A stretch of DNA of 25,606 bases, from the IMG/VR virus record IMGVR_UViG_3300045733_000385, positions 1 through 25,606 of that record, one strand, 5' to 3'. Below the pieces are notes generated by a model. That model did no database searches, was not told the origin of the DNA, and was given only the letters and a program-made list of their open reading frames with translations. Position numbers and translations under genes: made by a program. The stretch comes from a virus. Of this stretch, positions 2,853 to 13,271 are shown one piece after another. The number at the start of each line of letters is the position of its first letter. The stretch's first letter is position 1.

Positions 2853-3236
2853 CTAATTGCCTTGGATTTCGCTGACAGGAAGCTCCACTTTCGGAACGAA
2901 CTTCCGTAAGACTATAAATGAAACCATCAACTTTTCAGAAGCCTCTTGGTTCATTCCCGTTGCATCCTGAACCTCCGCAAGAGTCGCCAATTCATTCAAC
3001 CCGGCTCCCATCATTTTTAACGACTCCCCAACCAACTGATACTGGTGGCACATGTTTACAAATGAATCCGTCAAATCTTTGTATCCGTTGCTTGTGGTGG
3101 AAAGCACTGTAGCCACTTGACTCCGAAATTGACGGTCCAGTTCCTCCACACTGACATTGAGCTTTTTGGCAATGACTTGATCCGGGATCCCCGCCCTCTT
3201 CGCTTTCATCATGTAGCCCACATCTTGGTCGCTCAT
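2853..3236 (-). CDS. Unknown small helical protein with HTH-like start
   Basis: A 127-residue protein. Residues 12-37 (KAKRAGIPDQVIAKKLNVSV) read like a helix-turn-helix, followed by a long mostly helical region. No family recognised. Its ATG overlaps the stop of the glycosyltransferase gene upstream (ATGA), so it is coupled to the end of the glycan cassette. It could be a small structural or chaperone protein; the HTH resemblance alone does not prove DNA binding. Confidence 0.55.
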   Translation of the reverse strand: MSDQDVGYMMKAKRAGIPDQVIAKKLNVSVEELDRQFRSQVATVLSTTSNGYKDLTDSFVNMCHQYQLVGESLKMMGAGLNELATLAEVQDATGMNQEASEKLMVSFIVLRKFVPKVELPVSEIQGN

Positions 3237-4051
3237 GGTGTTCTCAGTTTTGTAATTGAATCCAGCAAGATTTCCTTGTTCCTGTTTGCTACCGCAGGAT
3301 CCCTATTCGCTGACTTGGGATGCCAACGATGGATCAAAGCAAGCCATTCATTGAGATCCAAAAGATCGCGTGCTTTGGGACGTGCAATTTCATCTCGGCA
3401 ACGTTGCGTGACATTCGCCAAAGTCAATGGACCAGGAAGCGGGTCCATTCCTAATCGCTGTTTTTCCAAAGCGTAAAGCTGCTGGTAGTCCTCCCAACCC
3501 CAACCATGAAAACGAGAATCACACCCACCCATTGCCAAGTAATCCTCCCTCCGACAAATGAAATTGGATCCTCCCAAAGCACCCATCATATTCAAACAAC
3601 TTTGGCTTTGAACAATATCTTTGTAAACAGATTCAGTTAGTGGCATCCCACTTTTCGTCAAGAGTGCATTGCTCACAGATTGCCCCGCGTAAAACATCCC
3701 ACCATTAAACCACTCTCGCGGCTTCGCTATTGCCAAACGCAAATACAATTCCTTGAAATACCGGACATTGGGAAGACAATCCACATCCATCTTCATGATC
3801 CATTCCGTGTTCGCCAACTCCACACCTATATTGTGGTAATAGCCTATGGAACGACCAGAAGGCCCCTGGCATCGAATCACAGAAACATCAAATGGATTCA
3901 TTTCCTCTTCCCACCCAAGAGGCGGTTGCTCGCCTACGAAGAAAACAAGGTGACGAACTTCTGGAATAGATGCTCCCTTGATGGCGGCACTCCAAACGGC
4001 AAGAGCCTCTGCACGTCCCCAAAACGGCGTGATGGTGGTGAGGAGAGTCAT
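3233..4051 (-). CDS. Glycosyltransferase, GT-A fold (GT2/GT7 C-terminal type)
   Basis: A 272-residue protein. The start MTLLTTITPFWGRAEAL suits a nucleotide-binding GT-A domain. A metal-binding DxD appears as MDVDCLP at residues 88-94. Residues 172-188 (AMGGCDSRFHGWGWED) match the galactosyltransferase-type C-terminal motif, in which a G-W-G-x-E-D stretch helps bind the acceptor and donor. Enzymes of this kind transfer a sugar from a nucleotide donor; the substrate is unknown. Its ATG overlaps the epimerase stop. It is the last gene of the glycan cassette. Confidence 0.85.
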   Translation of the reverse strand: MTLLTTITPFWGRAEALAVWSAAIKGASIPEVRHLVFFVGEQPPLGWEEEMNPFDVSVIRCQGPSGRSIGYYHNIGVELANTEWIMKMDVDCLPNVRYFKELYLRLAIAKPREWFNGGMFYAGQSVSNALLTKSGMPLTESVYKDIVQSQSCLNMMGALGGSNFICRREDYLAMGGCDSRFHGWGWEDYQQLYALEKQRLGMDPLPGPLTLANVTQRCRDEIARPKARDLLDLNEWLALIHRWHPKSANRDPAVANRNKEILLDSITKLRTP

Positions 4052-5031
4052 TTCGTCATTTCGTTATAGATCCATTCATAAGTTTTCTGAAGTCCATCCT
4101 GTAACTTGATGCTGGGCTCCCAGTTCAATCGCTCCTTGATCATAGTGTTGTCACTGTTCCTTCCGGCAACGCCATGGGGAGCATTGAGATTATAGATCCG
4201 ATTCAACTTCACCCCAGCAATCTCTTCCACTATGGACACCAATCCATTGATCGTCACCAGCTCTGAACTTCCTAGATTGATTGGTTCAGTGATGTCACTA
4301 TTCATGATCAACTGAATCCCTTTAATGCAGTCATCAACATACATAAAGGATCTAGTTTGATTCCCGTCACCCCAAATCTCAATCACATGTTTGCCACTCT
4401 TCTTAGCCTCAATCACCTTCCGACAAATGGCGGCTGGTGCTTTCTCACGTCCACCCTGGTAAGTCCCAAGTGGGCCGTATGAATTATGGAAGCGAGCAAC
4501 CCGCGTCTCCAACTTGAAATCTTCCCTGAAGTGCCTGCACATCCGCTCACTGAATAGTTTCTCCCACCCATATCCATCTTCCGGCATGGCGGGATAGGCG
4601 TCACTCTCCTTCAACGCCGTGACGTTAGGATCCGTCTGTTTGTCTGCGGAGTACGTGCACGCACTAGAAGAAAAGAAGAATCTATTTACATTTTGTGATC
4701 TTGCCGCCATGAGCATGTGAGTGTTGATCAAAACTGACAACATGCAATGTGCCTTGTGTGTTTCGATATACCCCATCCCGCCCATATCCGCCGCGAGATT
4801 GTAAACATAATCAACACCTTCACACACTTCCAAACAATTATCAGCGATGCGAAGATCCCTCGAAATATTCACCACCCCTTCCGCGGAATGGTCTTGGCAC
4901 CAGTCATGGATTGGTTTGATGTCAACTGCAAGGACATAGATAGGGGTCTTTCCCTGATTTCGCCGGATCAAATCAGCAATGAGATGACCCCCGAGAAAAC
5001 CCCCTGCACCCGTCACAAGAATTCGTTTCAT
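4048..5031 (-). CDS. GDP-mannose 3,5-epimerase-like NAD-dependent sugar epimerase
   Basis: A 327-residue short-chain dehydrogenase/reductase-type epimerase. The NAD-binding motif TGAGGFLG is at 7-14. The sequence follows plant GDP-mannose 3,5-epimerase closely, as I know that family: AADMGGMGYI (80-89), SSSAC with catalytic-type Cys125, YGWEK (Tyr154, Lys158), FHNSYGP, GGREKAPAA with Lys197, WGDGNQTRSF (220-229) and GRNSDN (290-295). The Cys and second Lys pair are hallmarks of this enzyme and not of ordinary GDP-mannose dehydratases or UDP-glucose epimerases. The reaction is GDP-D-mannose to GDP-L-galactose (and GDP-L-gulose). With the GT11 gene upstream it suggests an L-galactose-containing glycan. 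Plain leader GGAAATGAATCT before ATG. Confidence 0.88.
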   Translation of the reverse strand: MKRILVTGAGGFLGGHLIADLIRRNQGKTPIYVLAVDIKPIHDWCQDHSAEGVVNISRDLRIADNCLEVCEGVDYVYNLAADMGGMGYIETHKAHCMLSVLINTHMLMAARSQNVNRFFFSSSACTYSADKQTDPNVTALKESDAYPAMPEDGYGWEKLFSERMCRHFREDFKLETRVARFHNSYGPLGTYQGGREKAPAAICRKVIEAKKSGKHVIEIWGDGNQTRSFMYVDDCIKGIQLIMNSDITEPINLGSSELVTINGLVSIVEEIAGVKLNRIYNLNAPHGVAGRNSDNTMIKERLNWEPSIKLQDGLQKTYEWIYNEMTK

Positions 5032-5035
5032 AGAT

Positions 5036-5659
5036 TCATTTCCTTACATACAAAGCATCACCCCAGTTAGCTCCGGTCCATTTTGTTTCCACACGAATGA
5101 ATCCTGCTATTGCAAGAAATTCATCTATCTCCCCAACAAGAGAGCACCCGATATACAGAGGTTCCCTGTTGATTTCGATGTAAACAAAATCGAATCTACC
5201 TAGCAAGTTTCCCATCCCTCGGAGGGCCAAAAGCTCAACGCCTTGGAGATCCAGGTTGGCGAATCCCCCAGCCTCCAATTCAATTCCTTTCAACAGCGTA
5301 TCCACCCGCACTGTCTTCATCTGGAGGTCCTCCACGAACTTTACGGTAGGATGCTCCTTTGCATGAGTCCCAAAATCCAGGAACGATGAGCTTTGTGACT
5401 CGTTGCTGGCACGATGGAAAGTGACTTCCTCCCCGTCCACATCACTCACACATGCACAAAAGGTAATATGCTTGGGATACTTGGCGATATTCTTGACCAG
5501 TTGTTCGTAGATGTCCGGCAACGCCTCCACCCAAATCACCTTCTTGATTCCTTGCGCTTCATAGGATTCTCGCTCCTGTCCTACGGACGATCCTAAATGA
5601 AGCACATGCGTCGGCTTGATCTTGTGCTTTGCGAACAACTCCTTGAATGGGATTAACAT
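5036..5659 (-). CDS. FkbM-family methyltransferase
   Basis: A 207-residue SAM-dependent methyltransferase. The glycine-rich SAM loop is HLGSSVGQE near 21-29, with an acidic strand end VEALP near 44. The FkbM-type signature is clear: VRVDTLLKG, then NLDLQGVELLALRGM, then FVYIEIN. Family members methylate hydroxyls of sugars or polyketides; here the likely acceptor is a glycan built by the neighbouring transferases. The ATG follows AACTTAATCCATTTATC, a leader motif (AATCCATTTA) that recurs elsewhere in the window. Confidence 0.85.
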   Translation of the reverse strand: MLIPFKELFAKHKIKPTHVLHLGSSVGQERESYEAQGIKKVIWVEALPDIYEQLVKNIAKYPKHITFCACVSDVDGEEVTFHRASNESQSSSFLDFGTHAKEHPTVKFVEDLQMKTVRVDTLLKGIELEAGGFANLDLQGVELLALRGMGNLLGRFDFVYIEINREPLYIGCSLVGEIDEFLAIAGFIRVETKWTGANWGDALYVRK

Positions 5660-5669
5660 GATAAATGGA

Positions 5670-6212
5670 TTAAGTTACAATGAAGTAGCAGCCAGCATCC
5701 TCCATTTTATCCTCAGGCAAAAGTTGCAAATCAAACCCATGAAGTTTGCAGAATCCAGTTACGGCCTCCTTCACACCATAGGATGGATTCTGGAAATCAT
5801 GACACCCTATACATCCACCCTTCTTTACTTTGGGGACCCATGCCAACAAATCAGCCATTACCCCCATGTAGCTGTGATCCCCATCAAGATAGAGCAAAGC
5901 CAACGACCCATCAGGAACATACTTGGCCATCTTCACCGAGTCCCCCCGAAGAAACACAGCACGCTTCCCAAACTTGGCGACCCGTAATTGAGCCTCCCCA
6001 AAATTCTTGTCATGCCACGCCTGAGAATTGGCGCTGTCCCCTTTCATGCCGGGAACAGACTCCCAACGGTCCACCATGAAATGTCGCAACAATAAACAGT
6101 TACTCCACGAAAGGATGTCCGCACTAAAGAAGCCCTCTGCAACTCCGATCTCGGCAGAGTCGCCTTGGACGGTGACGATTTTGCCCAAGTCTCTTCGATG
6201 TCGAATGATCAT
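5670..6212 (-). CDS. Class I SAM-dependent methyltransferase (Methyltransf_24-like)
   Basis: A 180-residue protein. SAM-binding motif I is AEIGVAEGFFS (residues 20-30). Later motifs are LRGDSVKMAKYVPDG, LLYLDGDHSYMGV and WVPKVKKGGCIGCHDF, the layout of the class that includes cephalosporin hydroxylase-like and sugar O-methyltransferases. It lies between a glycosyltransferase and the FkbM gene and probably methylates a sugar. A separate and only distantly similar methyltransferase lies at 7906-8529. Confidence 0.8.
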   Translation of the reverse strand: MIIRHRRDLGKIVTVQGDSAEIGVAEGFFSADILSWSNCLLLRHFMVDRWESVPGMKGDSANSQAWHDKNFGEAQLRVAKFGKRAVFLRGDSVKMAKYVPDGSLALLYLDGDHSYMGVMADLLAWVPKVKKGGCIGCHDFQNPSYGVKEAVTGFCKLHGFDLQLLPEDKMEDAGCYFIVT

Positions 6213-6234
6213 ACTTTGTTATCCCCGGATCACG

Positions 6235-7152
6235 TCAAAGTTCTCTACGGAACATGTAATTCATATAATCGAATCCATCTGTTCCTTTGGTGTATCTGGC
6301 AGAACGATAGATTTTCACATTGATCACGCACATCGCCAGTTCATAAAGCAAAATAGAAAACTGGGTTTCCGGAGCAAACAAATACTCATTGCCTTTGTGG
6401 ATCGTGTTGTAACTTCGATCTGCAATAAGCCCCATCCTGTCTAACTCAGGGAACAATCGTGCCGCCGTGCCCCGATAAGAGAACCAACAGAATTCATCCG
6501 CCCACTCCATGGGATCCCGACGAAAACTCCCAAGCACGTAAAGATAACTGGGATCCTGATTCAGATAGTAATGAGAGAGAACAAGCGGTGATGGGGCGAT
6601 GAAATCCAGGCGGGCACGCACCACAAAATCATATTTGAATCCATTTTCCTGCTCAAACTGCTCCATCATTTCGTAGCACCGCTTGACATGATGATACTGG
6701 TCAATGACACATCGAATGTTGTTGTTTTCTGGATCTGTCACATCCCCGCCAAATGGAGCCGGCTTTCCCAACACCACACTTTGCCTGCGAAATTGATTAA
6801 CAAGATCCATCATTTTCTTTCCATCCGCCGCCGTGTGTGCTTGGTATTCCGGCATGTCATTGATGAAACGAATGTCCTTCAGCCGATCCCCAAACACTCC
6901 ACGAATGATGGCTACATCCTCGTTCGTAACCAATCTGGATGTATCCCGAACCATTGTCCGCGCCTTCTCCGCCCAAGTCTTGGCGTCATCAGAAAACAAG
7001 ACATCCGTGGATGGAGCCTTCCGTCGCATGTTATAACGGGATGTCAGAATGAAAACATCCGCGTTATTGGGAAGAACCAGATTCGCCATCAAGGAAGCGA
7101 TGGAGTCGTAGAAGTTGTAGGCGGTCCCGGAAAACAGAATTGCGGTTCTCAT
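6235..7152 (-). CDS. Putative glycosyltransferase (GT-A-like, DUF7796-type)
   Basis: A 305-residue protein starting MRTAILFSGTAYNFYDSIAS. The centre has YDFVVRARLDFIAPSPL, matching the V-x-R-x-R-x-D segment in which poorly characterised viral and bacterial sugar transferases place their metal-binding acid. An aromatic C-terminal region follows (FCWFSYRGTAARLFPEL). The family assignment is from memory and the sugar is unknown. Its ATG overlaps the upstream GT25-like stop by 4 bases, and it sits within the glycan cassette. Confidence 0.65.
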   Translation of the reverse strand: MRTAILFSGTAYNFYDSIASLMANLVLPNNADVFILTSRYNMRRKAPSTDVLFSDDAKTWAEKARTMVRDTSRLVTNEDVAIIRGVFGDRLKDIRFINDMPEYQAHTAADGKKMMDLVNQFRRQSVVLGKPAPFGGDVTDPENNNIRCVIDQYHHVKRCYEMMEQFEQENGFKYDFVVRARLDFIAPSPLVLSHYYLNQDPSYLYVLGSFRRDPMEWADEFCWFSYRGTAARLFPELDRMGLIADRSYNTIHKGNEYLFAPETQFSILLYELAMCVINVKIYRSARYTKGTDGFDYMNYMFRREL

Positions 7153-7922
7153 TTCCTTCCAGCCTCAGCCCAATTGAAAGTAGATGGATCAAAATTGTTC
7201 ATGTTATCCTGATACCAGTAAGGCCCCAACTTGGCGAAACCAGAGAAACGAGTGATCCCAAGCCCAATGTCGCTCTGCCCGTCATACTGCGTTATTGCCC
7301 CGGGCACGAAAGCAAACGTCTTGAGAACTGGCTGGATCTGGATGAAAGCATAATCAATCCCGATGCTGGTAGGAAGTTGCTGCTCCAACATGTTCAACAC
7401 TTTTGGCAAACTGAATCTATTTACGATGTAGGCGTAAGTGCAAAAGGCCCCGTAAGTGCGGATCATACGCGGGTTGTCTGTCAACTCCGCATCCCTTCCT
7501 AAATCCTTCTTGTGCCACCAAGGCGGATTGACATGAAAAGTGCCACCCAACCAAATCACATCCCATTCATGTGTATCCGTGAACTCCTTGATAATGTCCA
7601 TCCGCGCCGCGAAGTCCTGACAGAAAACAAGATCGTCCTCCATCACCCATGCGTGTCGGTCCAACCGCAACGCAAGTTCCATGATACTGACTTGGCTGAA
7701 ATGACACCCAATCGCGCCTTTCTGCGGCCTCGCCAGCATGGCCTTAATCCGATTGAGATCCCCTTTATATTCTGAGGGCAACATTCCCCGCTGGCGTATA
7801 ACAGGCAATCCAGCATTCTTCAAAGTCTGCTCCATCCGTCTCAACCTATCCGTGCGTAAATCTAAATTCACGAAGCTGATGTAAGATCCCTGAACTAATC
7901 CATTTTCAGATAAGTTTTGCAT
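7149..7922 (-). CDS. Glycosyltransferase family 25-like (LPS glycosyltransferase type)
   Basis: A 257-residue protein. The GT25 pattern is visible in order: NLDLRTDRLRRME (19-31), QKGAIGCHFSQVSI (67-80), HAWVMEDDLVF with the EDD metal site (95-97), and TYAYIVNR later. GT25 enzymes add galactose or glucose to lipooligosaccharide or collagen-like acceptors. Here the acceptor may be a virion or host-surface glycan. The start codon lies 17 bases inside the upstream methyltransferase; a shorter start is not obvious. Confidence 0.82.
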   Translation of the reverse strand: MQNLSENGLVQGSYISFVNLDLRTDRLRRMEQTLKNAGLPVIRQRGMLPSEYKGDLNRIKAMLARPQKGAIGCHFSQVSIMELALRLDRHAWVMEDDLVFCQDFAARMDIIKEFTDTHEWDVIWLGGTFHVNPPWWHKKDLGRDAELTDNPRMIRTYGAFCTYAYIVNRFSLPKVLNMLEQQLPTSIGIDYAFIQIQPVLKTFAFVPGAITQYDGQSDIGLGITRFSGFAKLGPYWYQDNMNNFDPSTFNWAEAGRK

Positions 7923-8529
7923 AGAAAGTTTTCCTCACCCACCAAATCCCACATTCCTTTTTAGTTGGAAGGACATGAAGCACTGTCTCTGGCACAAAGA
8001 CACGATCTGGAATGTCTGTCCTTGTAACCATTTTCGGGATCACTTCATCCACGGCCATTTTCACTTCTCTACCTTCACCGTCGTTGTAGTCGTGTCCCGC
8101 CAAAACACAATTCTCCTTAACCTTACGATGCCATAACCTCACGTCAGCCTTGGTCAACTCGTATCGGTGAGAAGCATCAATGAAAACGAAATCGAAATGG
8201 TTGTCTGGAAACTCACAAGATGCTTCCAAGCTATTTTTGGGCATGATCTCCACATGTTGAAGAAGATCCGCATTTCGTAGATTCTTCCACAACTCCCGAT
8301 ACTGTTTTCCTCCACCGTAAGAAAGATCGTCTATTAAGTAAAACTGAACGGTCTTGCCAAGATTCAAGATAGATTCAGCCAGATAGATAGCGGAAGCACC
8401 ATCTGCAACGCCCACCTCCGCAATAACGGAATTATCCGGAAGAGACTGAGCAATGGATTCGTAGAACGATTCAAAATCAAACATCCTCTTAGACATCGTT
8501 TTATGATACTCTCTCATAGACGAATCCAA
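7906..8529 (-). CDS. Class I SAM-dependent methyltransferase
   Basis: A 207-residue protein. Motif I is VIAEVGVADGASAIYLAES (35-53), with an acidic IDDLSYGGG after the second strand, then FVFIDASHRYELTKADVRLW and AGHDYNDGEGREV. These are typical of the Methyltransf_24-like group. ATG at 8529 would overlap the GT11 gene by 16 bases; the in-frame ATG four codons later (MREYHK) is an alternative that nearly removes the overlap. Likely sugar or small-molecule methylation within the cassette. Confidence 0.8.
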   Translation of the reverse strand: MDSSMREYHKTMSKRMFDFESFYESIAQSLPDNSVIAEVGVADGASAIYLAESILNLGKTVQFYLIDDLSYGGGKQYRELWKNLRNADLLQHVEIMPKNSLEASCEFPDNHFDFVFIDASHRYELTKADVRLWHRKVKENCVLAGHDYNDGEGREVKMAVDEVIPKMVTRTDIPDRVFVPETVLHVLPTKKECGIWWVRKTFYAKLI

Positions 8530-9260
8530 TTTTCAGGAACAATATCGCTGACATCTAAACCCCCGTGGCCCGGAACAAACCACAAACGAGGCATTATCAT
8601 CCGCTTCTTAGGGTTCTGATTAAGATATCCTCCCCAGAGACTAAACGTGCTGGCGCTGCCAATTTGATGTTCACACCAACTCATTTCCGTAAGGTCTTGA
8701 AGTGGATCTTTTCGCTTGGAAAAACTGACATCCTTCCTGTGACCAAACGTCTCTTTGCAATAAGCAATATCATCCGAAAAGAAAATGAAGTGGTAGCCGG
8801 GAAACTGGCGCATTGCTTCCTCAATCCATTCCTTGGGGACAGGTGGATGCTTGTGTGTGAGTCTCAGATAATCCCCACGGCGAAGATGCACCGAAACGAA
8901 TCCATCTAGTTGCTTCCATTCCAATCCAAATGCCGCGATGACTTCCTTGCGGAACTCCTTGAAGTATTTTTCTGTCTGCCAGTATCCATCCAACACGATC
9001 TGCTTACCTTCCCATTCCAGTTTGTAAGGAAGCTCTTGGTAAGCATGTGTTCCCTCCTCAATCCTCACCACTGGAGCAGAATTGTCCCATCTGGGATTTG
9101 CCAAATGTTGAAAATAGATCGGATTATGAACTGGACTCTTGGTGTGATCAGGGACAGAAAACTCCAATCCATGCCGCCATGCGTAGCCCATAGCTGCCGC
9201 AATTTGGAAGCAGTAATTTCCTAATCTTCCGTATGTAAGCGGACGCACTATCCCCTTCAT
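8514..9260 (-). CDS. Glycosyltransferase family 11 (alpha-1,2-fucosyltransferase-like)
   Basis: A 248-residue protein with all GT11 hallmarks: GRLGNYCFQIAAA (11-23), LDGYWQTEKYF (90-100), VHLRRGDY (124-131, the GDP-fucose binding HxRRxD motif), FFSDD (160-164) and IGSASTFSLWGGYLN (200-214). Known members transfer L-fucose from GDP-L-fucose in alpha-1,2 linkage. GDP-L-galactose differs from GDP-L-fucose only by a 6-hydroxyl, and the epimerase in this operon should make it, so the true donor may be GDP-L-galactose (inference). It overlaps the GT2 gene upstream by 4 bases. Confidence 0.9.
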   Translation of the reverse strand: MKGIVRPLTYGRLGNYCFQIAAAMGYAWRHGLEFSVPDHTKSPVHNPIYFQHLANPRWDNSAPVVRIEEGTHAYQELPYKLEWEGKQIVLDGYWQTEKYFKEFRKEVIAAFGLEWKQLDGFVSVHLRRGDYLRLTHKHPPVPKEWIEEAMRQFPGYHFIFFSDDIAYCKETFGHRKDVSFSKRKDPLQDLTEMSWCEHQIGSASTFSLWGGYLNQNPKKRMIMPRLWFVPGHGGLDVSDIVPENWIRL

Positions 9261-9955
9261 TCCAATCCTTTCAATTTTCGCTCCACTTCCTTAGCGAAAT
9301 CCTTCGTTTTGTGGACATTGTTCTTGTAGTGACTGCCCGCGTGGACTCGATGAAAGTAACGAAGTCCAGGAACAATCGTCATTCGCTTTCCACCATTCAA
9401 GAGACGATATGCTTGGTAAATACTATCCGCCGTGTTGGGCTCTGCCCCATAATCCCACACTCGCAACCAATCATCCCGATGGAAGAAGTAATTGGCCGTG
9501 TTCAATGCCGTGAAAAAGTGGGGCTTGTCCGCAAACAAGTGGACATTCTCCCGTGTGATCGTCTCACCAGCAAAAGCCGTGTAATCAAAATGAGGCTCAG
9601 CATACTCCGGACAGTAAACCACGTCATCCTCCCATTTCAGCAAAGCAAACAACGTGTCCAGATACTTCACCGGCATTATGTTGTCGTCATCAAACAGAAT
9701 CACCCAAGGCCACGTAGCACGCTCAACAGCCGCATGCTTGTTCCGGTAGCAATCCAAATTCTGCTCGTTCTGGTAGAGCTTGACCTTGGGATGTGTCTCG
9801 AAAAGGGAATGCAACTTCTCGAAAGATCCGTCTGTACTGGCGTCATCTGACAACACGATTTCCCCAATCCGATCGTCCTCCAACACGAACGCCAAACACT
9901 CAGTCAAAAAGTCGTAACGATTGTAAGTGGGAATGACGAGGCTGACAGGCATCAT
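9257..9955 (-). CDS. Glycosyltransferase family 2
   Basis: A 232-residue protein with the classic GT2 start VSLVIPTYNRYDFL, the first acidic pair LSDDASTDGS (35-44) and the metal-binding FDDDN (88-92). After about residue 110 the C-terminal half is variable, with an FFHRDDWLRVWDYG segment. It is the first gene of the glycan cassette, beginning 6 bases after the MuF stop. The sugar cannot be read from sequence. Confidence 0.88.
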   Translation of the reverse strand: MMPVSLVIPTYNRYDFLTECLAFVLEDDRIGEIVLSDDASTDGSFEKLHSLFETHPKVKLYQNEQNLDCYRNKHAAVERATWPWVILFDDDNIMPVKYLDTLFALLKWEDDVVYCPEYAEPHFDYTAFAGETITRENVHLFADKPHFFTALNTANYFFHRDDWLRVWDYGAEPNTADSIYQAYRLLNGGKRMTIVPGLRYFHRVHAGSHYKNNVHKTKDFAKEVERKLKGLE

Positions 9956-9961
9956 AATTTA

Positions 9962-11839
9962 CTAGATTTTTCTAATAGATTTCTTGGATTGTTCTATGTA
10001 GGGCATCCATGAACAACGACAATTATGACTTGCAATCCCCTGTGCCATGTAATAGCCTGTTTCCGTCTCCAAATTAAAAACATGACCATGAAACGAAACG
10101 ACACCTACAGAAACTATTTGATCCAGAAACACAGGGCCGGAATCACCGCTGGAGAGCTTGCCCGCGAGTATGGTGTCACTAGCAAGGTGATTGTTCGTGA
10201 CCTTGGTCCTGAATACAGAGCCATTGGGCGTCCCGCTAAAATCTGTGCCTCTGATGCCGTGTCGGACTACGTTTCTGGAATGTCTTGTCTGGCTGTCGCT
10301 AACAAGCATGGAGTTTCCAGAACCACAATTATGAATCGACTCGCAAAAGCGGGCATCACTCCCCGAAATGCCAGCGAGGCTGAAACACTGAGATGGTCGC
10401 AAATGTCTCCTGAACAACGTGCGAACCAAGTCAAATACGCCCACGCTGCCACCCTTGGAAAAGAAGTCCCAATTGAAAGACTTTGCAAATCGGCTCAAAC
10501 AAAACAGGAGAATCCTGAATGCTTGATTTCCCCCTTGGAAACCAAACTGCAAAGCATGTTGCTTAAACGAGGGGTAAAAACTACCCCCCAAGTGGCCATC
10601 GGTCCATATAACTGCGACTTGGCCTTCGGTACCATCGCCGTGGAAGTCTGGGGCGGACATTGGCACTTCACGGGACGCCACCTTGCAAGACTCAGCGAAC
10701 GCTTCAACTACATCCTGAATGCGGGCTGGTGCCTTCTTGTTGTCGTAATTGTGAAAGGAAGATTCCCACTCAACACTGCCGTCGCAGATTACATGGCTTC
10801 CTTTTTGAAGCGTGCAAGCAGCAACCCACCGCCCATCGCAAAGTATCGGGTGATTTGGGGTGCAAATGAGTTCGCGGTTTCTGGCCGTTTTGAGAACAAT
10901 CACATCTCCATCGTACCGCCGTTTAGTGGCCGCCGTAATTCGATCACGGGCAAGTATGAGACTATCGCCTGGTAGGCAATTTACGTGCAAAGGAATTACC
11001 CCACGCGCTTCCTCAATCGTATAAATCTTTCCATCTAAAGGAGCGCAAATATCACAGACCCGATCATCTCCAACGGTAGAAAGTTCAGCTCTCAACCCCA
11101 ATTCCTCCACACCCAATCTCACAAAACTGTCAAGTTGCCCCTCTGCATGGGCAGAAATTAGCTCCGATCTGGCGATCATCAAAGCTCGTTTGAAAGTTAA
11201 TCCATCTATCGTTCTGGCCATCTCCCGAGCAATGGGAAGAACTCCACGACCATCAATCATCCCTTGGGCTAGGATTCGATTCATGTCCGCCGCCATGGAG
11301 GCCGTGACCCCTTTCAACTGCTCAAAAGCACGGGTGGCTAGGAGTTGGACCTTGGACATCATTTCCGGCTGGCCAAACGCTGTCCGAAGGAAGACTTCCA
11401 AGGATTGTTCCCCAATTCCCGCCTGTTCCGCCAAAGAGCCAGCCCTGGATGCCATGAAAGCGTTGATCTGTCCTCTTTTGTAAGCAGATTCGATGTAAGT
11501 AGCCGTCCAAGGCTGCCCAAGTGGTGTCCCGGGGGCCACCGAGAACACGCCAATTTCTATCTGTTGTTTTAGCCAGTTATTGAAGGCAGTCAGTTTCGCG
11601 GCATCCGTCAAGAATTGGTGTTCCCTTGGCTGAGGCTGTGCCATGAACACAAGAGGCTTCCTTTCCTTCATCCCCAAGGCATCCGTTTCCATGAAAAACT
11701 TGACTACCTCCCGCCGCAACTTAGCAAACCTCCGCTTCATATCTGCCATAAATGCACGGCGCAACATGGTCGTGCGTGTAGGGTCCACCCCCAAAGGGTT
11801 AAACTTTCTGGCAGCGTGAAGATGAAGAGCGTGTGACAT
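9962..11839 (-). CDS. MuF-like head morphogenesis/minor capsid protein, interrupted by an intein
   Basis: A 625-residue precursor; the frame also extends upstream to 11911. I chose ATG at 11839 because it lies one base after the portal stop (TGACATG), whereas 11911 would overlap the portal by 71 bases. The N-terminal extein (1-287) is helical and ends in the MuF signature: VCDICAPLDG (Cys262, Cys265), IEEARGVIP, LHVN. The C-terminal extein is only 19 residues, starting CRCSWMPYIE. After splicing, the two join to the family motif P-x-H-x-N-C-R-C, giving a 306-residue mature protein. MuF/SPP1 gp7-type proteins sit in the head near the portal, and the position after the portal is normal. The intein occupies residues 288-606. 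Confidence 0.92.
   Translation of the reverse strand: MSHALHLHAARKFNPLGVDPTRTTMLRRAFMADMKRRFAKLRREVVKFFMETDALGMKERKPLVFMAQPQPREHQFLTDAAKLTAFNNWLKQQIEIGVFSVAPGTPLGQPWTATYIESAYKRGQINAFMASRAGSLAEQAGIGEQSLEVFLRTAFGQPEMMSKVQLLATRAFEQLKGVTASMAADMNRILAQGMIDGRGVLPIAREMARTIDGLTFKRALMIARSELISAHAEGQLDSFVRLGVEELGLRAELSTVGDDRVCDICAPLDGKIYTIEEARGVIPLHVNCLPGDSLILARDRITAATKRRYDGDVIVLKTARNRELICTPNHPILCDGRWVAACTLQKGSHVICDGSVEWESSFHNYDNKKAPARIQDVVEAFAESCKVASREVPMSAPDFHGDGTEGQVAVIWTDGHLGGSFYPSFKQHALQFGFQGGNQAFRILLFCLSRFAKSFNWDFFSKGGSVGVFDLVRTLFRRHLRPSQCFSLAGISGSDARFCESIHNCGSGNSMLVSDSQTRHSRNVVRHGIRGTDFSGTPNGSVFRTKVTNNHLASDTILAGKLSSGDSGPVFLDQIVSVGVVSFHGHVFNLETETGYYMAQGIASHNCRCSWMPYIEQSKKSIRKI
10022..10978 (-). other. 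Intein in MuF protein (319 aa)
   Basis: It begins CLPGDSLILARD (block A, Cys1). Block B is CTPNHPILCDGRWVAA (about intein residues 39-54, with T-x-x-H). Block F/G is VFNLETETGYYMAQG followed by IASHN, with the penultimate His, terminal Asn319 and an extein Cys at +1. All residues needed for class 1 splicing are present. The region between the splicing halves (about 70-290) shows no same-strand LAGLIDADG or HNH endonuclease; instead an endonuclease is encoded on the opposite strand across the whole intein. Insertion is exactly in the conserved HVN/CRC motif of MuF, the sort of invariant site that favours homing. Confidence 0.94.
10082..10975 (+). CDS. Vsr/EDxHD-like homing endonuclease, encoded antisense inside the intein
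   Basis: From ATG 10082 the protein has 297 residues. The frame also has ATG at 10025, but those 19 codons are just the antisense of intein block F/G. Two helix-turn-helix stretches (ITAGELAREYGVTSKVIVRD near 21-40, then AVANKHGVSRTTIMNRLAKA near 72-91) lead into NASEAETLRWSQMSPEQRA, a segment seen in free-standing homing endonucleases. A PD-(D/E)xK/Vsr-like nuclease follows at about 148-231: PLETKL (Glu153), GPYNCDLAF (Asp179), AVEVWGGHWH (Glu188, His193, His195), then ERFNYILNAGWCLLVVVI. This resembles the I-Bth0305I group and DUF559/Vsr proteins. The TAG stop is the complement of intein codon 2. No SD site is visible. Probable role: cleaving intein-less MuF alleles. Confidence 0.85.
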   Translation: MTMKRNDTYRNYLIQKHRAGITAGELAREYGVTSKVIVRDLGPEYRAIGRPAKICASDAVSDYVSGMSCLAVANKHGVSRTTIMNRLAKAGITPRNASEAETLRWSQMSPEQRANQVKYAHAATLGKEVPIERLCKSAQTKQENPECLISPLETKLQSMLLKRGVKTTPQVAIGPYNCDLAFGTIAVEVWGGHWHFTGRHLARLSERFNYILNAGWCLLVVVIVKGRFPLNTAVADYMASFLKRASSNPPPIAKYRVIWGANEFAVSGRFENNHISIVPPFSGRRNSITGKYETIAW

Positions 11840-11840
11840 G

Positions 11841-13271
11841 TCACTCGCCCGCGTTGCGAGCCAAAGCTGGATTTGCTCTGGGATTCGCCGGAGCCAGATC
11901 AGGAGGAGCAAACAAACTCACCCCATCCGTTTGCGCCATCTGTTTCTCCGATGCGTCAATAATGGCCTGTGCCTCCTCATCCGTCATCCCAAGAACAAGG
12001 GTCAAGTAGTGGAAGGGGGGAAGCATCGTGTCCACACCACCCTGCACATACTTGGCGAGAGCGTTCGTCTGCTTCTCTGCCACCGCCGCCTTATCCTGAT
12101 CGGTGGGACTGTTGAAATCCGGCCACGAAATCTTAACCTGTGCCGGTTTGGGCAAAATCCCAAATGCTATCAGACGGTCCACAAACGGACGGACGATAAA
12201 CGGATTGATATACTCCACACAGCGGCGCTGAAGCCGGCGATTCCAAACCCGAATGTCCTGCTCCGATGCCAACTGACCAACCTCAACTCCCATCAAGATG
12301 CGCCACGGCACACCAATGGCCATGGCGATCAACCGCACTTGAATCTCCATGTGCGGGCGAGGGTCCGCAATCTGAATGGCCAGACTCTTCACCGTCATCC
12401 CCGTGGTGGCAATGTAACGCTGGAGTCCATCCATGTAAGCCTCCATCTGTTCCTTGGTGGCTTTCTCATCCAACTCCACCTCACCCTCAACAGGAACAGC
12501 TTCCACGGAAAGACCCGGGAATCCACCCTTCCAAAACATTTCTCCCGCGCCCCCGGCAATCTTCTTCAGATCCAAGATGCGATTGTAGATCCGTTCCAAA
12601 CGCGGACATCCATAAACCTCCGAGTTGGTTCGATTATCCGCTAAATGGATTATTCTACTCCAGTGAACCGTTTGAGAGGAAGAAAGCGTGCTTCCCTCCA
12701 TGGCCTCATCACTGAACTGAATGGAGTATTTGGTAGGTTGTCCGAAACGAGGGTTGGATGAATCCGTTTGCAATGTTCTCACCTGAATCAAGGACTCATC
12801 GAACGGACGAACGAAGAGCAGTTTCAAGTCAGTGGGGACTTGCGTGGATTCCCCCATTTCATCCAATCCCTCCACGGGTTCACTCATCGGCTTCCCGTCA
12901 TTGAGCCCCAGCAACAGCACGCCAAACCGGCCAATGCCGCTCAAAACATCCGCCCGGTGGAGGAAGTAGAAAATCCTTAATCGTTCTTGTAGACCCGTCC
13001 ACGCTTTCTCAAACTCCGTTTCCTTCTGGTCCTCTGTCTCGTAAACGACGGGATCATTGCCCCAGCATTCCTCCGGGTAGAGACTGATAATTCGTGCTGC
13101 CATGTCACCCCGTTTGAAGGCAAGTGTGTTGTCTTCAATGCTGACCTCCGAAGGATGGCCGCACTCCGATTCGATGTTCTTGCGTGTGTCCGTGAGCCGG
13201 CGCAACCACGCGGCCCGCATGGTCATCGCATTGTTGATGAAATTACTGAAAAAGTTTGCTTTCACATTCAC
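11841..13271 (-). CDS. Portal protein (DUF1073-like)
   Basis: A 476-residue protein, a normal length for the family. Recognisable segments are AARIISLYPEECWGNDPVVYE (about 57-77), DVLSGIGRFGVLLLGLNDG (107-125), the RIIHLADNRTNSEVYGCPRLERIYNRI segment and LIAMAIGVPWRILMGVEVGQLAS. The family forms the dodecameric ring through which DNA enters the head. The position between terminase and MuF supports this. The leader AACTTGTGA before ATG has no SD site. The C-terminus ends in an Ala/Pro-rich tail. Confidence 0.88.
   Translation of the reverse strand: MNVKANFFSNFINNAMTMRAAWLRRLTDTRKNIESECGHPSEVSIEDNTLAFKRGDMAARIISLYPEECWGNDPVVYETEDQKETEFEKAWTGLQERLRIFYFLHRADVLSGIGRFGVLLLGLNDGKPMSEPVEGLDEMGESTQVPTDLKLLFVRPFDESLIQVRTLQTDSSNPRFGQPTKYSIQFSDEAMEGSTLSSSQTVHWSRIIHLADNRTNSEVYGCPRLERIYNRILDLKKIAGGAGEMFWKGGFPGLSVEAVPVEGEVELDEKATKEQMEAYMDGLQRYIATTGMTVKSLAIQIADPRPHMEIQVRLIAMAIGVPWRILMGVEVGQLASEQDIRVWNRRLQRRCVEYINPFIVRPFVDRLIAFGILPKPAQVKISWPDFNSPTDQDKAAVAEKQTNALAKYVQGGVDTMLPPFHYLTLVLGMTDEEAQAIIDASEKQMAQTDGVSLFAPPDLAPANPRANPALARNAGE

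Follow-up and report, generated by a model that had tools for sequence, protein, structure and literature searches.

Inteins with nucleases encoded in frame are textbook knowledge. In bifunctional (large) inteins such as PI-SceI and PI-PfuI, the splicing polypeptide itself contains the nuclease as a domain between blocks B and F. The known I-Bth0305I/EDxHD enzymes are intron-borne or located beside split inteins and are not known to be encoded antisense within an intein. Antisense homing-endonuclease genes occur in nuclear group I introns (Didymium I-DsqI, Dir.S956-2; PMC9548176), where the element is an RNA intron of an rRNA gene and its peripheral insertion, which encodes a His-Cys box enzyme, need not code in sense. 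Another described arrangement is the ShiLan type, an out-of-frame, same-strand HNH insertion in phage methylases that has no splicing domain (PMC11855218). Our literature search found antisense endonucleases in group I introns only; we found no earlier description of an antisense nuclease within an intein, but as subscription papers and bioRxiv preprints were outside the search, an earlier report cannot be excluded.

In this study, we analyzed a window of 25,606 nucleotides, the whole stretch of DNA taken from the virus record IMGVR_UViG_3300045733_000385. It very probably contains a mobile intein with an antisense homing-endonuclease gene nested in its own DNA, with splicing, expression, cleavage site and homing inferred. 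The element resembles bifunctional inteins in its Hint halves, C1, block B TxxH, terminal HN and Cys+1, and also in having a conserved insertion site, empty and filled alleles and a nuclease gene carried within the element. Unlike in those inteins, the nuclease is a separate, opposite-strand protein that overlaps the N- and the C-terminal splicing half, and the sense middle for the most part lacks a confident fold. With the group I introns (PMC9548176) it shares a self-splicing element that has an endonuclease gene on the opposite strand, but here both strands must code for protein. Like the ShiLan-type insertion (PMC11855218), it is a phage element with an endonuclease hidden in another frame of a host gene that stays open; it differs in using the opposite strand, a Vsr-like nuclease and Hint domains. 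The likeness to I-Bth0305I is in the fold of the catalytic domain, within a protein that also has helix-turn-helix (HTH) DNA-binding regions.

The minus-strand ORF spans 9962-11911, and the MuF gene within it likely starts with the ATG at 11839, directly after a portal gene recognized by Pfam (11841-13271). Pfam Intein_splicing matched the ORF with an E value of 6.4e-7. The gene is flanked by the portal gene and a run of glycosyltransferase genes; on the minus strand of the window at 3233-9955, glycosyltransferase, sugar-epimerase and methyltransferase genes form a run beside the phage head genes. The intein is inserted into MuF at PLHVN/CRC (slash, junction), and its junctions and motifs read ...IPLHVN/CLPGDSLIL...CTPNHPIL...GHVFNLETE...IASHN/CRCSW, with the hallmarks C1, TPNH block B, block F, terminal HN and Cys+1 all present. 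C1, H43 and N319 were invariant in an alignment of 31 inteins. An earlier note had proposed, from the letters alone, a complete minus-strand intein within MuF with no nuclease domain in its own chain. The first point proved exact, with a 319-residue intein at 10022-10978 that has the splicing motifs and the Pfam match. The second held as well: Pfam matches in the sense chain were limited to the Hint and MuF domains, and the middle of the intein was modelled mostly with low confidence. A search for a group I ribozyme in the window gave no Rfam match at the gathering threshold. The features of the locus are listed in the table.

Table. Features of the MuF-intein locus and of the gene on its opposite strand
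Feature	Position	Strand	Evidence or remark
MuF (SPP1 gp7-like) minor capsid gene with intein	9962..11839	-	Pfam Phage_Mu_F, E 5.7e-10
Intein, 319 aa, Cys1 to Asn319	10022..10978	-	Pfam Intein_splicing, E 1.2e-7 (intein part alone); modelled fold
N-terminal splicing half, intein residues 1-70	10769..10978	-	Block-mean pLDDT 85-96; intein alignment
Block B, TPNH	10850-10861	-	Within N-terminal splicing half
C-terminal splicing half, residues 285-319; block F HVFNLE from His299, HN at end	10022..10126	-	pLDDT 88-96; intein alignment
Sense middle of intein, open, mostly without confident fold	10127..10768	-	pLDDT mostly 27-62
Putative antisense homing-endonuclease gene, 297 aa and TAG stop; open from ATG 10025	10082..10975	+	tblastn, 127-132 phage records; pLDDT 89.4
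Two helix-turn-helix regions, nuclease residues about 6-90	10097..10351	+	HTH_11 (E 1.4e-5), HTH_50, HTH_28; helices in model
Vsr/I-Bth0305I-like nuclease core, residues about 148-250	10523..10831	+	Sequence profile and structure matches
Shine-Dalgarno/start site of homologues within block F	10070..10084	+	ATG kept here; Shine-Dalgarno absent (Leu codon TTG)

The plus-strand ORF (10025-10975) encodes 316 residues, and homologues align from the ATG at 10082. From there the nuclease gene lies wholly inside the intein DNA and is codon-aligned with the intein frame. The two frames have common codon boundaries, so that plus positions 1, 2 and 3 are minus positions 3, 2 and 1, and the TAG stop of the nuclease (10973-10975) is the complement of the intein Leu2 codon (CTA). 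Pfam nuclease families matched the antisense strand only, with MTES_1575 found in 10 and DUF559 in 3 of 35 antisense family members. A sequence profile of the antisense proteins matched the PDB entries 3r3p (I-Bth0305I, E 1.8e-5) and 3hrl (E 2e-4). Residues E153, Q170, Y176, N177, D179 and E188 were invariant in the nuclease alignment; in the profile alignment, 3r3p has Glu at the positions of E153 and E188 and Ala at that of D179, and judged by this alignment the catalytic residue set is not obviously identical to the canonical EDxHD set.

The AlphaFold model of the window nuclease, built with an alignment of 35 antisense proteins, had a mean pLDDT of 89.4. Structural comparison with VIA-align gave Z scores of 11.5 (127 aligned residues, 6.1 Å) and 10.8 (110 aligned, 2.4 Å) against E. 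coli Vsr, and of 9.7 (94 aligned, 2.8 Å) against the I-Bth0305I catalytic domain. With Foldseek alone the nuclease match was weak (3r3p, E 0.03); the clear ones came from VIA-align and the sequence profile. The earlier note's reading of the plus strand as a protein with two HTH regions and a Vsr/DUF559-like core is borne out by the presence of the motifs it quoted and by these matches, and the proposal survived a finding that could have refuted it, the absence of a nuclease fold. In the AlphaFold model of the sense intein (31 inteins), the two ends reached pLDDT values of 85-96 and most of the middle 27-62, apart from a short stretch at residues 81-100 (81-85). The ends matched the Hint fold of the Mtu RecA intein with a Z score of 14.1 (107 aligned, 1.6 Å). 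In these predictions, then, the confident fold of each strand largely lies opposite the part of the other that has no confident fold, the shared ends excepted.

Antisense phases that are codon-aligned frequently lack stops, and the plus-strand frame could on that account be meaningless. Indeed, the same window has a stop-free, codon-aligned antisense run of 267-268 codons opposite the portal gene (11838-12644, plus), which is probably due to chance and for which there are no homology data. Because of this similar run, and because the probability of no TTA, CTA or TCA codon is about 0.007 for a nuclease of such composition, the length of the antisense ORF is by itself weak evidence. Homology carries the antisense gene far beyond chance. 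With the plus-strand protein alone as query, tblastn recovered 127-132 records of phages of Gordonia, Salmonella, Pseudomonas, Vibrio, Klebsiella, Escherichia, Mycobacterium and other hosts, mostly under annotated head genes. Among the phage and plasmid loci that we fetched, the nuclease lies, unannotated, opposite an open frame of MuF or another host gene in all but phage P1068. An HMM search of the fetched loci, including viral and genome contigs, found 115 nuclease places, some of them from the same contig. The codon-aligned sense phase was stop-free in 112 of the 115, and the other two phases had on average 20 and 9 stops and were never stop-free. The nuclease fell within the intein bounds in 64 of 74 cases, most exceptions being due to a mis-picked Cys1. 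For the pattern search, a profile of 24 sequences was too diverse, and smaller groups were taken. Together with the confident nuclease fold and the codon-position signature described below, by which the antisense protein is conserved beyond the sense protein, these data led us to reject a chance ORF, a reading that we regard as practically ruled out. Judged by homology, the antisense arrangement is a widespread family and not a one-off.

The codon-aligned register raises a further concern, since conservation of one strand yields similarity on the other. The sense middle could be the conserved domain and the antisense similarity merely its reflection through shared codons. The nearly invariant sense FHGDG in the intein alignment looks conserved in this way, and the nuclease motif VAVE is read from its complement. 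However, in 29 of 29 disjoint pairs changes were more frequent at nuclease position 3, which is the sense first position, than at position 1 (2879 vs 2095), and nuclease identity exceeded sense identity in every one of them. The N-extein showed the reverse codon-position bias of the nuclease region. Moreover, the sense middle is mostly unfolded in the models, while the antisense protein folds, matches Vsr and I-Bth0305I and is the only one of the two with Pfam nuclease matches. We therefore rejected mirrored conservation for the middle, where it is highly improbable, and to judge from the substitution patterns the nuclease frame is the selected and constrained protein there. We accepted it for the start region and for the C-terminal segment YRVI, whose codons read TPNH(PI) of block B on the complementary strand; since the codons of the splicing halves are selected in sense, conservation of YRVI and of the shared ends is not independent evidence for the nuclease.

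Selection is also visible in the codons that would make stops on the opposite strand. In 73 distinct antisense copies, TTA or CTA was used for none of 1255 Leu and TCA for none of 1232 Ser residues, against about 446 such codons expected from extein usage. The copy in Acinetobacter phage P1068, in which the sense frame is broken or non-coding, has 12 of them. The sense frame is thus kept open, and taken together with the substitution patterns these codon statistics indicate that both overlapping frames are under selection.

Read on the complementary strand, block F (HVYNLE) typically gives GAGGTTATAAACATG. The block-F Leu is CTC, the complement of the GAG of GAGGT, in 37 of 47 cases (8.7 +/- 2.5 expected), and the block-F His is CAT, the complement of ATG, in 33 of 35 (13.2 expected). 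Two Jerseyvirus loci (L038, L039) have CTC for the block-F Leu, yet their N-extein uses this codon for 0 of 21 Leu. Going by this codon choice, the start codon of the nuclease and usually its Shine-Dalgarno sequence are written inside intein block F. We recognized no sigma-70-like plus-strand promoter upstream of the nuclease.

In-frame insertion into a gene that is also found without the intein was seen in related Salmonella and Gordonia phages. The MuF genes of Salmonella phages BPS11Q3 and PBSE191 differ by the intein, which PBSE191 lacks, and match on its two sides over 725 bp (97%) and 319 bp (90%). Among Gordonia MuF genes of about 95-98% identity, that of Brandonk123 is empty, and a single codon is the insertion site of three different inteins, those of Angelicage, Kewpiedoll and Nordenberg. 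Relatives also occupy other sites within MuF. Outside MuF, inteins with an antisense nuclease were found in Phage_min_cap2 (L051, L160), in a phage metallopeptidase (L162), within the PCxxC motif of a dCMP deaminase (L049) and in a lysin-like protein without a Pfam match (L163, L180). SPN3UB, considered as an intein without the antisense gene, was rejected because its MuF is empty and the blast match had overrun the stop.

Free-standing relatives of the nuclease in P1068 (L046, 2414-3307) and at a second locus (L092, 2306-3223) lie directly after an intact, intein-less MuF gene in convergent orientation, a plausible ancestral or derived state. They make a free-standing, MuF-targeting ancestor plausible, and the locus could accordingly be a composite of two elements, a mini-intein and a once free-standing nuclease that was inserted into it antisense and aids it in trans, rather than a co-evolved unit. 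We consider this unlikely. The arrangement is common to strongly diverged members, the start signals lie in block F and stop codons are avoided throughout, so intein and nuclease evolve as one unit today, and the two-element account may describe the origin of the arrangement rather than its present state.

We propose that the minus strand would be translated into a whole MuF-intein-MuF protein, from which the two Hint halves would fold, excise the intein and join the capsid protein, with roughly 200 residues in the middle as a tolerated linker. The plus strand of the same DNA would give the separate HTH-HTH-nuclease protein with the Vsr/I-Bth0305I fold. During co-infection, this enzyme is presumed to cut intein-less MuF alleles near the N/C insertion codon, and repair would copy the intein and the nuclease gene together. 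Both frames, their register, the selection on each, the empty and filled alleles and the predicted folds can be read from the sequences. That the nuclease mobilizes the intein is inferred from the allele patterns; cleavage and homing have not been shown. Against this mechanism stand the lack of experimental evidence for splicing, plus-strand transcription or cleavage, the lack of a recognized promoter, the absence from the window copy of the Shine-Dalgarno sequence found in most relatives, and a catalytic residue set that does not plainly correspond to that of EDxHD enzymes. With homing not shown, the nuclease might be translated for another role, for example cutting competing phages, or antisense RNA might lower MuF expression, which is conceivable given the head-gene operon on the other strand. 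We give such roles little credence, because the Vsr/I-Bth0305I fold with two HTH regions, the empty and filled alleles and the turnover at one site are what homing predicts.

The Nordenberg intein, the third allele at one Gordonia MuF site, was considered as an intact intein with a lost nuclease, and this was rejected because another nuclease is encoded antisense. In Gordonia phage Nordenberg (L211), this gene (1846-2433, minus) lies codon-aligned inside the intein (1732-2556) and encodes 196 residues with the motif AAYVAAFIDGEG. The protein matched PHROG 5046, labelled HNH endonuclease, with an E value of 2.2e-15 and is 31-32% identical to annotated phage endonucleases; its best PDB similarity, a short one, was to the LAGLIDADG enzyme I-MsoI (E 0.0013). 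From these similarities we class it as LAGLIDADG-like and unrelated to the Vsr-like family. The type occurs in nine Gordonia records. In a search for further antisense copies, a simple regular-expression scan detected Hint motifs in none of 17 PHROG 5046 genome loci, and a viral scan likewise yielded no such copy. The data suggest antisense capture of a nuclease at least twice, with thin evidence for the second. A wider reading, to which we give even odds, is that mobile inteins have a second architecture, antisense nesting, which is general and arose by convergent evolution; unrelated nuclease families (Vsr-like widely, LAGLIDADG-like in Gordonia phages Nordenberg, Lennon, Sitar and Barsten) would then lie opposite the splicing domain with shared codon boundaries, the Vsr-like family having its translation signals in block F. 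If it is general, nuclease dose would be uncoupled from expression of the host protein.

If the proposed nested arrangement is right, inteins have a second way of staying mobile, overlooked because annotation assigns one gene per stretch. Phages would offer cases in which one DNA segment carries two protein codes, selection can be measured on each, and the start signals of one gene sit inside a splicing block of the other. The annotation of many phage genomes in public databases (Jerseyvirus, Kagunavirus, Gordonia, Pseudomonas, Vibrio, Klebsiella) would have to gain a gene. The origins of the overlap become testable, as free-standing relatives adjoin the empty target gene; so do the expression of the nuclease apart from the capsid gene and the question of whether the overlap slows nuclease loss.

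Relatives with an intact intein and a broken nuclease frame, which could also have counted against the earlier note, are rare: the frame is almost always kept, and a few copies look shortened. In Rhodococcus phage REQ3 (L051) and at one further locus (L139), inteins of about 212 and 194 residues have a shortened antisense nuclease, which may be decaying in an intein that persists. At four loci (L101, L105, L110, L115), portal, MuF and intein form one continuous open frame, either because portal and MuF are fused or because the neighbouring genes share a stop-to-stop frame. Finally, at one locus (L066, 3363-4115) the Vsr-like core is replaced, as judged by eye, by an HNH-like segment joined to the DNA-binding part of the family.
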